Made by a program: the position numbers and the translations under genes. Shown here one piece after another: positions 7,879 through 22,150 of a DNA stretch of 40,510 nucleotides. This DNA is from Methanococcoides seepicolus. Lineage in GTDB: Archaea; Halobacteriota; Methanosarcinia; Methanosarcinales; Methanosarcinaceae. The DNA is taken from assembly GCF_023684405.1 (NCBI RefSeq), contig NZ_JAGSOI010000020.1, forward strand, positions 1-40,510, given 5' to 3'. The notes under the pieces are model-generated. The model saw only the letters and a program-made list of their open reading frames with translations, was not told the DNA's origin and did no database searches. Positions within the stretch are counted from its first letter, which is position 1. The number at the start of each line of letters is the position of its first letter.

Positions 7879-9878
7879 GCTTTCCCCTTCTTACCGCTGC
7901 CCGCTTTTTCAGCCCTTATCCGTTCCAGCAACAACTCAGCCGGTTCCCAATCCGGCGCACTGTGCACCTCTTCCAGCTCCCGCTTATTGAGCAACTTCCC
8001 CTCGAACGCCCTTTTCAAAATACTCTGCCGCAGTGCCTCGGCTATTTTGAGATTCTCTTCGATGTCCTGCTCGACCTTATCGCATACTGAAAGGCGGGTT
8101 TCGATTTCAGTGACGATAGAATGTTGTTCGAGAAGAGAGCAGAGTGGGAAAACGGTATTTTCTATAATCCCTAAATTTAGATTTGGTTGAACTCCGCCTG
8201 AAGACTTTATTCGAATTTCATCATAGTTTTTCGTCAAGAACCATTTTAAATATGACCTGATTTTTTCTTCAGTTCTTTCCTGAACGATTGCAGCAATAGC
8301 TTGATTCGTTGTTGCTTCAATTAATAATTCAGAGCATTTTCCCCTTGTTTTCCCCTCTCCATAAAGAGCAATAAGCAAAGTATTCTTGGGATGAATTTTT
8401 AGATTTGTTTCTTTCAAGGCAATGTCAGTAACATAATCAGATGCTAAATTCACGTAGGATTCATTGAGTGCACCACTTGTAACCCAAGGGATTGTACCGC
8501 CCTCGTAAAAATCGCTCCTTTTTTTTAATGGTGTAACTCCAGTACCTACTTTTGAAACTTGACCTATTTTTGTCCATTCCCATTTTTCAGGTAGTTTAGG
8601 GAATTCATCTAGTTCGGGTTCTGTAAGTGGTTCAGTTTCCTTGGACTTTTTTGGTTTTGTGGGTTTTTTACCTTCCTTTCCTGCATCTTCCCACTCTCGA
8701 ACTGCCCTTTTCCACTCATCCAGCTTCTTGTTGTAACTCTCTTCCCGCTCTACCTGAATCTGCTCCAGCAAATCCTTCGCTTCCGGCAGATCGGTCTGCT
8801 GTTCCCGCCATTCCCTCGTGAGCTCCCCCTCAAATGCTTTCTTCAGCACTGCCTGCCGGTACACCTTGAGCTGTGCCTGTGCCAGTTTGAGGTTGGCAAT
8901 GCCGTTGTCCAGCTCGCTGAAGAGCTGCTCGATCTTGGAGACTATGACACGCTGTTCGGGGAGTGGGGAAAGTGGAATTATTTCACTTTTCAAAACTGCA
9001 CCTGAAATCGCTTTAAATGTAGTGCCAGTACCTTTTTTATCCAACTCTTTTTCAATTAATCTTAAAAAGTAAAACACATACTTATTACAATAAGAGTAAC
9101 GAATAGCTGCTAATCCTCTACCAATACAACAATTTTGATTGGCAATATTTGTTGTTCCAACTGGGGCTCGAACTGAAATTAGGATATCATTTGATTCAGC
9201 CGCCTTCTTTGGTTTTGAGCACCACTTTGAAACAACTGGGTGCAGTACAGTAAACTCTGCTTTTCCTTGAAAAAATGGGAGTCCAATTCCATTTTCATTG
9301 TAAGTTGAAGATGGTGGCGATTGTCCCATTATAATTTCAGCCATCTGGCTCAATTCGGCATCAATCCATCCAATTCTTTCTTCTACAGATTCAGAACTTT
9401 GGTTAAACTGAGACTTATTCTTATCAATTGCAGATATCTTTGCATCATATTCTTTGTTTTCTTCTGTTAAAAATACAGTTTCATATTTTTTTTCAAAATA
9501 ATTCAACGGTAAATAGCAGTAAGATTGGGGTGGTCTAAAGTCCTTTTTTAATTTATAGGGATCAAACGGCTCAGAAAATGTCTCGAGATTGGTTATTTCG
9601 ATTGCATAAGCAACATCTGAATTTTTGAAATACTCGAAAAAGTCATTTTCGGGAATTCCTCCGTATTTATGGCATTTATCCCACAGTTTTTGAGGTGAAT
9701 CAGCAATGATTCGGGCAATCTCAAAGGAAGCAACTACTTTTTTGACAGGGGAACTCGAATAGATGAATACTTTTCCTAGATCTTTTTTCTTGAAAATAGC
9801 TTTTCTAAACTCGAATATCTTTTTACCTGCTAGGATTTCATCAACATATTTTGGTTTAATTGACAGTAAAACGTTCAT
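7875..9878 (-). CDS. hsdS: ASCH domain fused to type I specificity subunit
   Basis: HsdS selects the DNA sequence methylated or cut by the type I complex. From ATG at 9878 the product has 667 residues. Residues ~1-145 form a complete ASCH (PUA-like) domain, opening MNVLLSIKPKYVDEILAGKK. After a short linker the HsdS part begins (WIDAELSQMAEIIMGQSPPS), with target-recognition domain 1 to about residue 320, a long conserved helix (SELDNGIANLKLAQAQL), a charged spacer rich in Lys/Pro, target-recognition domain 2 from about 435 and a second helix near the C-terminus. Two recognition domains and two helical spacers are normal; the ASCH part is not. An upstream GTG at 9890 is possible, but ATG 9878 sits correctly behind GGTGGC and at the usual ASCH start. 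It overlaps both neighbours. Confidence 0.88.
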   Translation of the reverse strand: MNVLLSIKPKYVDEILAGKKIFEFRKAIFKKKDLGKVFIYSSSPVKKVVASFEIARIIADSPQKLWDKCHKYGGIPENDFFEYFKNSDVAYAIEITNLETFSEPFDPYKLKKDFRPPQSYCYLPLNYFEKKYETVFLTEENKEYDAKISAIDKNKSQFNQSSESVEERIGWIDAELSQMAEIIMGQSPPSSTYNENGIGLPFFQGKAEFTVLHPVVSKWCSKPKKAAESNDILISVRAPVGTTNIANQNCCIGRGLAAIRYSYCNKYVFYFLRLIEKELDKKGTGTTFKAISGAVLKSEIIPLSPLPEQRVIVSKIEQLFSELDNGIANLKLAQAQLKVYRQAVLKKAFEGELTREWREQQTDLPEAKDLLEQIQVEREESYNKKLDEWKRAVREWEDAGKEGKKPTKPKKSKETEPLTEPELDEFPKLPEKWEWTKIGQVSKVGTGVTPLKKRSDFYEGGTIPWVTSGALNESYVNLASDYVTDIALKETNLKIHPKNTLLIALYGEGKTRGKCSELLIEATTNQAIAAIVQERTEEKIRSYLKWFLTKNYDEIRIKSSGGVQPNLNLGIIENTVFPLCSLLEQHSIVTEIETRLSVCDKVEQDIEENLKIAEALRQSILKRAFEGKLLNKRELEEVHSAPDWEPAELLLERIRAEKAGSGKKGKA

Positions 9879-11343
9879 CGAGTTTGCCACCGTTTTTTAG
9901 GGCTAAATATTGCTCATGGTTTATTTCAGTTATTGATTGTGGAGGACCATTGAGTATACCTTTTTGTTTAAGCTCACTCCAATTTAAAGGATTTGGGAAG
10001 TAAAAATGGTGTTTAAAAGGAATAATGAAAACTCCATCCTCTGCTTTTTCTATAAGTTGTTCCTCTGAATACACACTTCTTTTGCCTACAATTCTCTTAA
10101 GCTCATCAATATTGTTATTTCTTATAGGTTCTCGATCAACGATTCCAAGAGAAGTAATAGCTTTTTGGTCATGTGAACGATAGAATAAGACTATATCCCC
10201 TACACTCAATTTTGAAGAAAAACGTGATGAAAGATATGCTTTTTTTATTGTATTTCCAGGAACATTTATCTCAATATAATCTGTCAATTTCATTTGCCTA
10301 TTTCTATATTCAGGAAATAGTATGTCATGAAATCGTGGCTGAATTGGAATTACAAATTTGTTAACACTTTCATCGTCTTTAAAACATGGATAATATTTTT
10401 TTGCAATCTCTAATGGAGATAATTCTTGTTGTTCACCGATGAGTTTTTTCAGATATACAGTTTCATCATTCTTTTTTAGTTTTCCAGCTCTTTCAAAGCC
10501 AAACTTATCAATAAGATGAAACAGACCATCATCTTCAACTTCAAAATGAGTTAAGTAGATTTCAAAAATATCATTATTGATACAATACTCAAAAGCGATT
10601 TTTAGGAAAAGCTCTCCTATTTTGGATCCAGAGAGATTTACTTTCAGTGTTGCAATTTTAACTCTTTTTGCCGCATGAATTGGATTATATGCCTCGATTG
10701 GTTCGTTTTCTTCTTTTAACATGAGAAAGGCTTTAGTTTCCCCATCAACTTCATAAATATAGCATTCACGACTTTCTTTGATACACTTATCATACCATAT
10801 TCTAAAATCGATCTAACCATAATCTTCTTTCAATGAATCAAAAAAAGATTGGTCTATATTTATCTCGTGAGCATACATTTTCCTCAATAAACTGTGACTT
10901 GGAGAAAAACGTTGATACATCACATTAAAATAATCGAGAGCTGCCTCTATAGAAAAGACTCTATCATCGAGATTCAGCAAACTTGCTTTATTCTTGATAC
11001 CTTTATCTTCTGTAATCAGGAAATCGACAAGATTTTTTTGAAGTGAATAAAGAATTTCGTTATCATTTTCATCATGTGAATTTGTAGGAGGACCTACTAA
11101 CGAAATAAAATTATCATCTGGTTTAGGGGGTGAAGGAAGAAAAGGGTAACCAAATAATTTTGATAAAGTAACCTTCCTTCTTCCAATGTCATTATCATTT
11201 TCTATATCCTTTTGGGAAGCAGGATGAATAACCTCTTGATGACCATGTTCTCGGATTATTGCTAATAATGATTGGAGATTGGGAGAAAGTTCTTTTGGGT
11301 CATTAATATGAATCAGAATATTAGTATCATATAAAATTTTCAT
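9856..11343 (-). CDS. PIN-GNAT-EVE protein with in-frame TAG (amber) at codon 177
   Basis: One reading frame runs from ATG 11343 to 9856 with a single internal stop, TAG at 10813-10815. Before it lies a PIN nuclease-like domain (MKILYDTNILIH at the start, DNEILYSL and FLITEDKGIKNKA for the further acidic residues). After it come a GNAT acetyltransferase domain (IWYDKC..., then ATLKV and SGSKIGELFLKIAFEY, about 180-315) and an EVE/PUA-like domain (FVIPIQPRFHDILF to the end). From family knowledge, PIN and GNAT domains occur joined in one protein with the junction SLKEDYPGFDEWF-like; here it reads SLKEDYG-TAG-IDFRIWYDKC. The first ATG after TAG (10722) would cut off the start of the GNAT fold. 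ATG 11343 is preferred over 11361 because box A at 11374-11381 predicts transcription starting near 11350. It could be read through as pyrrolysine, be translated as two proteins, or be a pseudogene. Confidence 0.75.
10813..10815 (-). other. in-frame TAG codon, possible pyrrolysine or nonsense site
   Basis: TAG at this position separates the PIN domain from the GNAT-EVE domains in one continuous frame. The 30 codons between TAG and the next ATG are all sense codons and encode recognisable GNAT-family sequence (IWYDKCIKESRECYIYEV). No other intact gene in the window ends in TAG. Confidence 0.6.
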
Positions 11344-11373
11344 CTTCCACTTCAACTCCATTAATTATCTGAA

Positions 11374-16326: not shown

Positions 16327-16730
16327 CTTACTGAAAGGGCACAGAATTCACATCAATTAAATCAAATTATCGGAAGGCAGAAACTCAAAGGAAAGTACAC
16401 AATTCCATTATGTAACGGTTGCACTAACCTCAATCCCCATTGTTATATTTGAATAACTCTCGTATAAATGCCTACCTGTTGCAACTATTTGGCACCCCCA
16501 TAAACGACATCATAGGATAGATCCATATGGGGTAAAATTTCCTCCGCATATCTTTCCGATCATAAAAGATAGATTGCTATTTTAAACTGGTCTTATGCCC
16601 TTATTTTGTGTTGCATTTATGATAGGATCGAACAAAACTAAGAACACTTATATTTATTTTGAGTGACAAAGTTAAGTTATAAATTGCATTTTGTGTCCTA
16701 CATGGTCCAAAAATGAAGGGGGATATGAGT
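16327..16730. other. divergent promoter region, no gene
   Basis: About 400 bases lie between the histidine kinase and the surface-protein gene. Plus-strand box A candidates are CTTATATT (16647-16654) and AGTTATAAAT (near 16675). I see no open frame or RNA gene. Confidence 0.5.
16647..16654 (+). promoter_or_regulatory. candidate box A of the COG1361 gene
   Basis: CTTATATT lies 84 bases before ATG 16731; a second TATA-like element (AGTTATAAAT near 16675) is closer. Either could drive the gene. The ribosome binding site AAGGGGG at 16716-16722 is 8 bases before ATG 16731. Confidence 0.35.
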
Positions 16731-17761
16731 ATGTCAAAAAAGGTGCTGCTGTTGTTAGGAGTCTTTCTACTGCTTGCAGCAACCCCTAATGTTAGTTCTG
16801 AGGTCATTCCTCCCAACATTGGAGAACTCCTGGATGATTACTATGATGTTTCAGGAGAACCACAGCTATCAGGTTCTGTGATAGGGGACCTTGAATTTGA
16901 AAGCGGGGAAACTTCCAAGATATTCGTCCGGTTGCTGAATACCGGTCAGACAACTACCTTTGATACTGAAAATGAGCCATCAGGACCGAATGAGCTCATG
17001 GATGCCAGCACGGAACTTGATCTTGAATACGACATTACCACAGCAATAAATATCCATGGTACCCTGGAAAATCCTGAAGAAGCACCAATAAGGATCTTCA
17101 GCACGCCTCAGAATGTAGAATATCTCAGGAGCGGTGAGATGGCACTCCCAATGGAATTCGACATAGAGATCTTCAAAAATGCACCCTCTGGAACATATGA
17201 GCTCGCATTGGACCTGAACTATCAATACCAGATTGACGTTAAAGTTGAGGGCTATCCGAACCAGAAGATAGATTATTGGTATGTCACGAAGAACCAGACC
17301 CTGCCTATCTATATTGAAGTGAAGCCAAAGGCTGATCTTATCGTTGAGAGTGTAAGATCCCAGCTGATACCAGATCAAAAAAGCCTTCTTTACATCACAT
17401 ACAGGAATACAGGGGATGAGGTGGCTGAGGATGCCGTGGCCAGAATAACAGTATCAGAACCATTCAGCAATACCGATGATCAGGCATTTCTGGGCACCCT
17501 TGGACCCGGCGATTCATACCAGGCGCTTACAGTATAGAAGTGGAAAGTGACGCACTGGCCAAAACATATGGGATCGACACTGAGGTAGAATACAAGGACA
17601 TCCACGGCAATGTCCGGACATCCGATGTGATCAAGGTGTCGGCAACAGTGGAGGAAACGGATGACAGCATGATGTTGTCTGTATACCTGCTTGCCATTAT
17701 AATAGTGGGTGCTGCTGGACTCAATCTCCACATTAAGCGAAGGAAGCAAAATATTCGTTGA
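16731..17761 (+). pseudogene. COG1361-type surface protein, single-base frameshift
   Basis: Start ATG 16731 is chosen over 16713 because AAGGGGG at 16716-16722 sits 8 bases before it and would otherwise lie inside the gene. The product has a signal peptide (SKKVLLLLGVFLLLAATP), an extracellular beta-rich region resembling COG1361/NEW3 S-layer-related proteins (for example the repeat LVIESVRSQL-type start of an Ig-like domain), and a C-terminal membrane helix (LSVYLLAIIIVGAAGLNL) with a basic tail. The first frame stops at TAG 17535-17537 after GPGDSYQALTV. The continuation AYSIEVESDALAKTYGID, the expected end of an Ig-like domain, is in another frame. One base missing near 17524 explains this. 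As written the protein loses its membrane anchor. A sequencing error is possible. Confidence 0.75.
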
Positions 17762-19816: not shown

Positions 19817-20434
19817 TTATGCTTCATCGCGTTTTAGTTTTGCCATTGCTGCGGCCATATTGATCTTTGCATCTTTATAATCGGGATCTGCATTCAAGAC
19901 CTTTGCAAAGCAAGTGATGGCTTCTTCATATTTTTGCATGTGGTAGTAAGCGACACCTTTTTTGTTCCATTTAATGGTGTATTTTGAATTAAGTTCCATG
20001 CTACTGTGGACATTCTCATAACATTCAATTGCATCTTCATATCTGCCAAGCATGTCAAATATAATTCCCTTATTTATCCACGCATTATCATATTTTGGGT
20101 CGATATCAAGAGCCTTTGAATAAGATCTGATCGATTCTTCATGCTCACCAACATAAGAATGAGCGATACCCTTGTTGTACCATATATCAGGATTATCGGT
20201 GTCGAGCTCAAGGCCCTTTTCAAAACAGTGGATGGCTTTATCATAAATGCTAAGGTCGCAATATGCAATGCCGGTGTTGGTCCAGACTAATGCGATAGCT
20301 TCTTCGTTCCATAACAGGGGGTCCTTTGATTCGGATTCAAGTACTGCAGAATAGTACTATATCTTCTCATCCGGGTATTCCGCATAGAATCCCATATGGA
20401 ATAGTTGCTCTACTGTCTTGCCTTTCCCTTCCAC
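19817..20434 (-). CDS. TPR protein with in-frame TAG (amber) at codon 26
   Basis: The frame from GTG 20434 (behind AAGGAG) to TAA 19817 encodes 205 positions and contains one internal stop, TAG at 20357-20359. Before TAG: MEGKGKTVEQLFHMGFY and EYPDEKI. After it: YYSAVLESESKDPLLWNEEA, then four tetratricopeptide repeats (IWYNKGIAHSYVGEHEES, AWINKGIIFDMLGRYEDA and others). There is no ATG, GTG or TTG in frame between TAG and ATG 20053, about 100 codons, so the first two repeats can only be made by readthrough. A one-base change GAG to TAG would give a normal protein (KIEYYSAV). TPR proteins mediate protein contacts; partner unknown. It could be a Pyl-containing protein or a nonsense pseudogene. 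Confidence 0.72.
20357..20359 (-). other. in-frame TAG codon, possible pyrrolysine or nonsense site
   Basis: TAG interrupts a frame that is TPR-protein-like on both sides. It is the second such site in the window; the other is at 10813-10815. Confidence 0.6.
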
Positions 20435-20610
20435 TAAAGTCTAACTCCTTTTTTATTTTTGAAACAATAAATAAAAGCATACCGATTATCAAATATACAA
20501 TGTTTTATGGCTTTTTATTCCAAAGGACTTTCACTATTAGTGCATAATTAGAATATATAATCAGTGGTTCATTACTAAATAGTCAGTAATTTTGATGTCT
20601 TATTTTATCA

Positions 20611-20620: not shown

Positions 20621-20674
20621 TCCATGTGTCAATTTCCGATACATAAATATATGGTAGACAAGTGTTCAAACTAC

Positions 20675-22150
20675 ATGGGCAGAATCGCAGGTTTCTTCAA
20701 ATTAGCTTCTTCTTCCATCAGTATGGTTAAGATCTTTAATGAAATGGAATCTCGTGGTGACTATAAAGCTTTCATCTATACAGGCGATGGTATTCATAAG
20801 GTGTGTTCTGCCTCTGAAATACAGTCCATGTCACTCAATGAAGCCATGATAGGTTTTGATAGTCTGGCAGCTTCATCCCCATTGAGTTCATCATCAGACC
20901 AGTTCGAATTTATCGGAGATACTGACATCTACAATTTAGATGAGCTTGCATGTGAACTTCATTGTGATGCTGTGGAGAACATGTCAATTCTGACACGACT
21001 TTTGCAGGATACTTTCAGCCTTGATAACTGCAGTGATCATGAGATGTTCCAACGTTTTGATAGTTCATTAAGGACTATTCGCGGGGTTTATGCAATTGCC
21101 TTTCATATAGGTGATAAACTGTTTCTCGCAAGAGATCGGATCGGTATAAAACCTCTCTGGTATGACGTATCTTCCGGTTTTGCATTCGCTTCGGAAAAGA
21201 AGTTCTTAGAGATGTCCGGGCTTCATGAAGTGGTGGAACTTGATCCTCGGCAGATCCTATGCTACGATCTTAAAAACGATACTATAAAGGTATACGATAG
21301 AGAATTTTTGCAGGGACTTGCAGAACATCAGGGATCTTTTGTGGAGGTCCGGGATGGTCTTCTTTCTTTGCTTAAAGACGCGGTCTCTATACGTGTGCCG
21401 GATGAGGATTTTGGTGTAATGTTCTCAGCAGGAATTGATTCCACTATCCTCGCCCTGCTTTGTAAAGGGTTTGCTGAAGCTAAAGGCGTAATATGTAATT
21501 GTTATACGGTGGGACTTTCAGGGCAGGTCCCGTCACCGGATATCACCTGTGCAAGAAAGCTGGCAGATGAGCTTGAACTTGAATTAAATGTGCATGAGAT
21601 CGGTCTCGATACTGTGGAAGAGTATCTAAGTACAGTTGTCCCTTTGATAGAGGATGCGACCGTTCCGAAGACAGGTGTCGCATTGACGATGTATGCGGCA
21701 TGTAAGGCGGCAAAGAATGATGGCATAAATATATTGTTCGCAGGTGCCGGAGCTGATGAACTTTTTGCCGGATATAACAGGTTCAAAAGTTCAGCATCTG
21801 TAAATGAGGATTGTATCAGGGATATCATGGAAATGCATGAAGTGAACACGTATCGCGATGATACGGTCGCGGCGTTCACGGGAGCGAAAGTGCGTCTTCC
21901 CTATCTTGATGAGAAGTTTGTGGAATATGCCCTTGCCATTCCAAAAGAGTATAAGATCTCCGATGAGATGAACAAGATCATCCTGCGAAAGGCAGGTGAG
22001 GAGCTTGGGTTACCAAAGTATGTGACCGAGAGGGGGAAGAAAGCTGCTCAGTATGGTAGCAGGTTCGATCAGGCTTTAAAGAAGCTTGCAAAAAGAGCAG
22101 GTTTTGCGAATAAGACCGATTATATCAATAGTTTTCAGGAGAGTAGATAA
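20675..22150 (+). CDS. asparagine synthetase-like protein lacking the glutaminase cysteine
   Basis: The C-terminal half is an asparagine-synthetase ATP-pyrophosphatase domain with PP-loop FSAGIDSTILALL and the block LFAGAGADELFAGYNRF. The N-terminal half is a class II glutaminase fold (RGVYAIAF, LFLARDRIGIKPLWY). Active glutaminases of this class begin MCGIAGF, with Cys2 as the nucleophile; here the corresponding start reads MGRIAGFF, with no Cys. The enzyme could therefore use free ammonia, or act on a different substrate. ATG 20675 is chosen because it matches the family start and fits the box A at 20611; ATG 20651 in the same frame is possible. It is followed by dph6 with one base between, so the two are probably co-transcribed. 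Confidence 0.82.
   Translation: MGRIAGFFKLASSSISMVKIFNEMESRGDYKAFIYTGDGIHKVCSASEIQSMSLNEAMIGFDSLAASSPLSSSSDQFEFIGDTDIYNLDELACELHCDAVENMSILTRLLQDTFSLDNCSDHEMFQRFDSSLRTIRGVYAIAFHIGDKLFLARDRIGIKPLWYDVSSGFAFASEKKFLEMSGLHEVVELDPRQILCYDLKNDTIKVYDREFLQGLAEHQGSFVEVRDGLLSLLKDAVSIRVPDEDFGVMFSAGIDSTILALLCKGFAEAKGVICNCYTVGLSGQVPSPDITCARKLADELELELNVHEIGLDTVEEYLSTVVPLIEDATVPKTGVALTMYAACKAAKNDGINILFAGAGADELFAGYNRFKSSASVNEDCIRDIMEMHEVNTYRDDTVAAFTGAKVRLPYLDEKFVEYALAIPKEYKISDEMNKIILRKAGEELGLPKYVTERGKKAAQYGSRFDQALKKLAKRAGFANKTDYINSFQESR

Follow-up and report, generated by a model that had tools for sequence, protein, structure and literature searches.

A gene for a TPR protein in the window (the whole 40,510-nucleotide stretch of Methanococcoides seepicolus DNA analysed here) contains an in-frame TAG as its 26th codon. 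Judged from sequence, this TAG is very likely a sense codon that arose from GAG. Pyrrolysine would be inserted, the full TPR protein of 205 residues would be made, and the change is probably tolerated, that is, neutral. In the scenario that we propose, the Glu codon GAG became TAG in this lineage through one base change, G to T. The UAG would then be read by pyrrolysyl-tRNA, whose anticodon is CUA (pylT, pylS, pylBCD), and ribosomes would insert pyrrolysine at position 26 and continue to the end of the 205 residues. We infer both the incorporation of pyrrolysine at codon 26 and its neutrality: the former because this Methanococcoides has its own pyrrolysyl-tRNA (CUA anticodon), the latter because the site is variable (E, K, R, A, S) and lies in a degenerate hairpin, where pyrrolysine is probably tolerated but not needed.

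The gene lies on the minus strand (19817..20434), has 205 codons, ends with TAA (19819-19817) and contains a single in-frame TAG (20357..20359). Its GTG start codon (20434-20432) is found 10 nt downstream of a Shine-Dalgarno-like AAGGAG (20445..20450, minus strand). An earlier note on this DNA had read the same frame, from GTG 20434 behind AAGGAG through the TAG at 20357-20359, and sequence and translation agree with it. The note had also counted about 100 codons after the TAG that offer no start. There are exactly 101 before the first in-frame ATG, GTG or TTG, which rules out an alternative start just after codon 26. As the note had expected, a standard-code gene caller keeps the last 78 residues from ATG 20053 (table-11 open reading frame 19817..20053, minus strand). 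An extra TAG (20441..20443, minus strand) is found in frame three codons upstream of the GTG, outside the coding sequence; orthologue comparison shows that it is also present in three other genomes (G023, G022 and G016).

The product is a TPR protein, as the note had proposed: Pfam TPR_1 matches the 205 residues in four stretches (8.9e-37). Both before and after the TAG the frame scores highly for coding potential (+19 bits over 25 codons and +131 over 179 codons, respectively). Since coding potential and TPR homology both fall on the 20434-19817 frame, a shadow open reading frame is ruled out. Together with ten uninterrupted orthologues, these observations show that we are dealing with a real gene and not a chance frame.

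The predicted structure is a confident, all-helical TPR stack (mean pLDDT 92.9, pTM 0.86), obtained from a five-sequence alignment with five models that span 62 to 93. Several 34-residue units that form a helix-turn-helix stack, as expected of a TPR protein, are seen in the Pfam match, the model and the PDB comparison. The PDB comparison returned designed and general TPR proteins only, and hence assigns no function. TPR proteins usually serve as protein-binding adaptors. In the model, residue 26 is part of the second helix (21-33), within the first, degenerate TPR hairpin. The neighbouring genes are an AsnB-like gene upstream on the opposite strand (20624-22150) and, downstream, a CDP-alcohol phosphatidyltransferase, purS and purQ.

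Close relatives show where the TAG comes from. A comparison of 112 genomes of the family yields uninterrupted orthologues from ten other Methanococcoides genomes (70-98% identity over 200-odd codons), and in each of them GTG or ATG occupies the same start position. The closest proteins are 98% (SMBSF09 and SMBSF15) and 97% (M. alaskense) identical. The comparison at codon 26 that the earlier note had called for yields Glu in all ten congeners, encoded by GAG in the four nearest genomes. Across the family the residue varies between Glu, Lys, Arg, Ala and Ser, and within Methanococcoides a TAG at this codon is confined to one genome. The TAG is therefore a recent one-base change from GAG on a terminal branch. 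The gene carries no other lesion. It thus has the features of a neutral gain as in Thg1: relatives carry an ordinary residue that is one base away, and the frame is otherwise intact. The window's own TAG is recent and occurs in a single genome; the low dN/dS of the gene against its sisters mostly reflects shared history.

The genome has the means to read UAG. A profile search of the genome found a PylS match above the family cut-off, and pylT-pylS-pylB-pylC-pylD follow each other in this order in one cluster on contig C1. ARAGORN found the tRNA-Pyl with its cta anticodon. Three MtmB and two MtbB genes contain an in-frame TAG at the known pyrrolysine site. TAG is also avoided as a terminator: it is the last codon in 7 of 227 long open reading frames (3%; at least 150 codons, 327 kb of this genome), compared to 18.5% of all stop triplets. 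Two of these seven are in-frame TAGs inside longer genes (10815 in the window and one on contig C114). In the gene set defined by coding potential TAG ends 4 of 289 genes. The same count over 120-520 kb of other genomes gives 2% for G017, 2.4% for the Methanohalophilus genome G034 and 9.4% for the Methanosarcina-type genome G074. Taken together, tRNA-Pyl, PylS, PylB, PylC and PylD, TAG-containing MtmB and MtbB, and the avoidance of TAG as a terminator characterize a pyrrolysine-decoding archaeon.

TAG still occurs as the last codon of some genes in such genomes. Among the matches above the cut-off there is one full-length aRF1 and no second copy that might free UAG; weaker matches also exist. 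The pylB gene (L045) itself ends in TAG; the next stop follows 42 open codons later, and the extension would overlap pylC. A TAG at the end of pylB is on record for M. burtonii, M. mazei and M. acetivorans (PMC2933860). Hence some UAGs may terminate, and reassignment may be incomplete. As a separate observation, the genome encodes a full-length MtmB homologue without TAG (L097, G000:C104:4660-6009), with Met at the place of pyrrolysine (ALMGPGTP vs AVOGPETS). It is possibly a methyltransferase for another substrate.

No stable RNA structure was found in the approximately 100 nt after codon 26 (z = +0.68; 150 of 200 shuffled sequences fold as well or better), so no PYLIS-like element is seen. 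When the PYLIS of mtmB was replaced, insertion was lowered but not abolished (PMC2933860). A PYLIS is thus not required for insertion.

In-frame TAGs also occur in the orthologues of a second genus, g9, which we take as Methanohalophilus (with G033 taken as Methanohalophilus mahii SLP). All eight genomes of this genus contain one or two TAGs in the gene, none of them at codon 26. In the numbering of the window's gene, they are at codons 94 and 97 in six species, at codon 54 in G032 and G037, and at codon 30 in G037 only. In G037 and G034, too, the TPR gene is followed by frames similar to the phosphatidyltransferase and purQ (translations compared by eye), which supports orthology. In the protein tree, which agrees with the genera, the TAG positions fall on separate branches. 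Hence TAG has been gained at least four times in the TPR family, including the gain in the window. The orthologues listed from genera g10 (27) and g11 (5) contain no TAG.

Selection has acted on the protein on both sides of the TAGs in Methanohalophilus. Between G032 and G037 dN/dS is 0.06 before TAG-54 and 0.09 after it (dS >1), and for the part downstream of the TAG P(neutral) = 2e-16. In the six-species group dN/dS is 0-0.07 before TAG-94 and 0.12-0.54 after TAG-97. The weaker constraint after TAG-97 could mean that the C-terminal part is less important or that translation is partial. In G032 and G037 the first start codon follows 6 codons after the TAG, in the other Methanohalophilus genomes 9-26 codons after it. 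Internal initiation is thus possible as far as the supply of start codons goes, but it would need a conserved two-protein arrangement and is the less simple explanation. The window's gene lacks such an escape throughout its 101 start-free codons. The earlier note had offered decoding of the TAG and a GAG-to-TAG mutation as two readings. These do not exclude each other, and judged by sequence both are right: the mutation is seen in the comparison with congeners, while the pyrrolysine machinery, the TAG-containing methyltransferases and the purifying selection around the Methanohalophilus TAGs, a strong argument from outside the genus, speak for decoding.

With 1-2% of genes affected per genome, the recurrence of TAGs in one small family on separate lineages is above expectation, by a rough and after-the-fact estimate. 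In G034 (520 kb, 475 genes scored) six genes carry an in-frame TAG that is flanked on either side by coding signal; judged by sequence, MtbB, MttB and the TPR gene are among them, and two or three of the rest seem to be upstream start errors. Codons 94 and 97 correspond to units 13 and 16 of a TPR repeat (TPR_1 match 82-115), which are not among the usual TPR consensus sites. The TPR gene has long branches in Methanohalophilus (0.42 and 0.64 changes per column), so that rapid substitution at tolerant TPR positions may suffice to explain the repeated gain.

Alternatively, the TAG could be a nonsense mutation that stops translation after 25 residues, leaving either a fresh pseudogene or only the 78 C-terminal residues from ATG 20053. 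We consider this very unlikely. UAG may still terminate in such archaea, as at the end of pylB (PMC2933860), and the TAG is restricted to one genome of the genus. However, the same genome has the complete pyrrolysine machinery along with TAG-containing MtmB and MtbB, and the gene is free of other lesions. Initiation at codon 128 would lose all but the end of the TPR stack. Moreover, the TAG-bearing orthologues in Methanohalophilus are still under purifying selection.

There is a similarly slim chance that the TPR family is a pyrrolysine hot spot in which the residue has a use, for instance as a reactive surface group or because the amount of full-length protein is tied to the pyrrolysine or methylamine state. 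The positions would then shift while the dependence is kept, as it would be in all Methanohalophilus genomes.

That the TAG is a base-calling or assembly error, and the real codon GAG as in the sisters, is highly unlikely. The assembly is a draft of 158 contigs, another gene of the window contains a probable single-base frameshift near 17530, and the TAG occurs in one Methanococcoides genome only. Yet an error that lands exactly on TAG is improbable in itself, and in-frame TAGs recur in the genome (in a second gene of the window, and twice in a TPR gene on contig C114).

Least probable of all is a selected switch, in which an early UAG ties the output of full-length TPR protein to pyrrolysyl-tRNA, and thereby to pyrrolysine supply or methylamine use: the recurrent gains in one family (codons 26, 30, 54, 94 and 97, on separate branches and in all eight Methanohalophilus genomes) would fit, but the positions differ between lineages, neither the other congeners nor the 32 listed g10 and g11 orthologues have a TAG, no RNA structure follows the TAG (z = +0.68), and neutral gain explains changes at variable TPR positions.

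A neutrally gained pyrrolysine codon has its closest parallel in Thg1 (tRNA-His guanylyltransferase) of Methanosarcina, for which later accounts of Heinemann et al. (2009) describe pyrrolysine acquired by neutral evolution (PMC2933860, PMC8211752). In both cases a point mutation placed an in-frame TAG in the gene of a protein outside methylamine metabolism, in an archaeon that decodes pyrrolysine. Thg1, however, is an enzyme whose pyrrolysine has been the subject of published work, whereas here a TPR scaffold has gained TAGs repeatedly at different codons, with incorporation inferred. MtmB, MtbB and MttB share the in-frame TAG in a pyrrolysine-decoding archaeon, and TAG-bearing MtmB and MtbB occur in the very same genome. 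For MttB of M. portucalensis, a Methanohalophilus, the pyrrolysine itself has been detected by mass spectrometry (PMC4928046). Their pyrrolysine is catalytic and their TAG is conserved at one site, while the TAG of the TPR gene replaces Glu in one genome and has no PYLIS-like structure.

Other non-methyltransferase genes with in-frame TAGs have been called pseudogenes or left unexplained. For Methanohalophilus mahii, a citrate synthase with an amber codon in its gene has been proposed (PMC3017947), and transposases of the same sort are reported from Methanosarcina (PMC2933860). These belong to other protein families than the TPR gene, and the citrate synthase case comes from a single genome. 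A screen from 2013 discusses neutral TAG gains (PMC3639795). According to a review from 2021, transposases and Thg1 are the only pyrrolysine proteins known besides the methyltransferases (PMC8211752). Pyrrolysine outside methyltransferases is therefore already known and the TPR case joins a known kind; the fresh point is the repeated gain in one family.

The TPR gene is also what a "Pyl code" predicts, a genome-wide code in certain methanogens in which, as Kivenson and colleagues reportedly described in 2025, all TAGs mean pyrrolysine. Gene callers that use the standard code would truncate or miss the TPR protein in the window's Methanococcoides as well as in Methanohalophilus. With it, a non-catalytic family with repeated independent TAG gains would join the few pyrrolysine proteins known besides the methyltransferases. 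Codons 26, 30, 54, 94 and 97 form a natural series in which to study how well ordinary archaeal proteins tolerate pyrrolysine, and whether UAG behaves in them like any other sense codon.

The window contains a second gene with an in-frame TAG (9856..11361, minus strand; 501 codons, TAG at 10813-10815), which has a C-terminal EVE-type domain according to a weak Pfam match. Relatives from several families encode this gene as one uninterrupted frame of about 495 codons (78% identical in G008, 58% in G107 and G123). The G008 protein has Asp at the place of the TAG and its gene has no internal stop. Elsewhere in the genome, another TPR gene (L073, G000:C114:7178-8599, minus strand) contains two in-frame TAGs, with coding signal in all three pieces. 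Finally, a secreted, membrane-anchored-looking protein (16713-17749, plus strand) shows an apparent single-base frameshift near 17530, which may be either a real lesion or an assembly error. The frame that reads ...SYQALTV resumes in another frame as SIEVESDALAKTYG... and continues to a C-terminal transmembrane segment.
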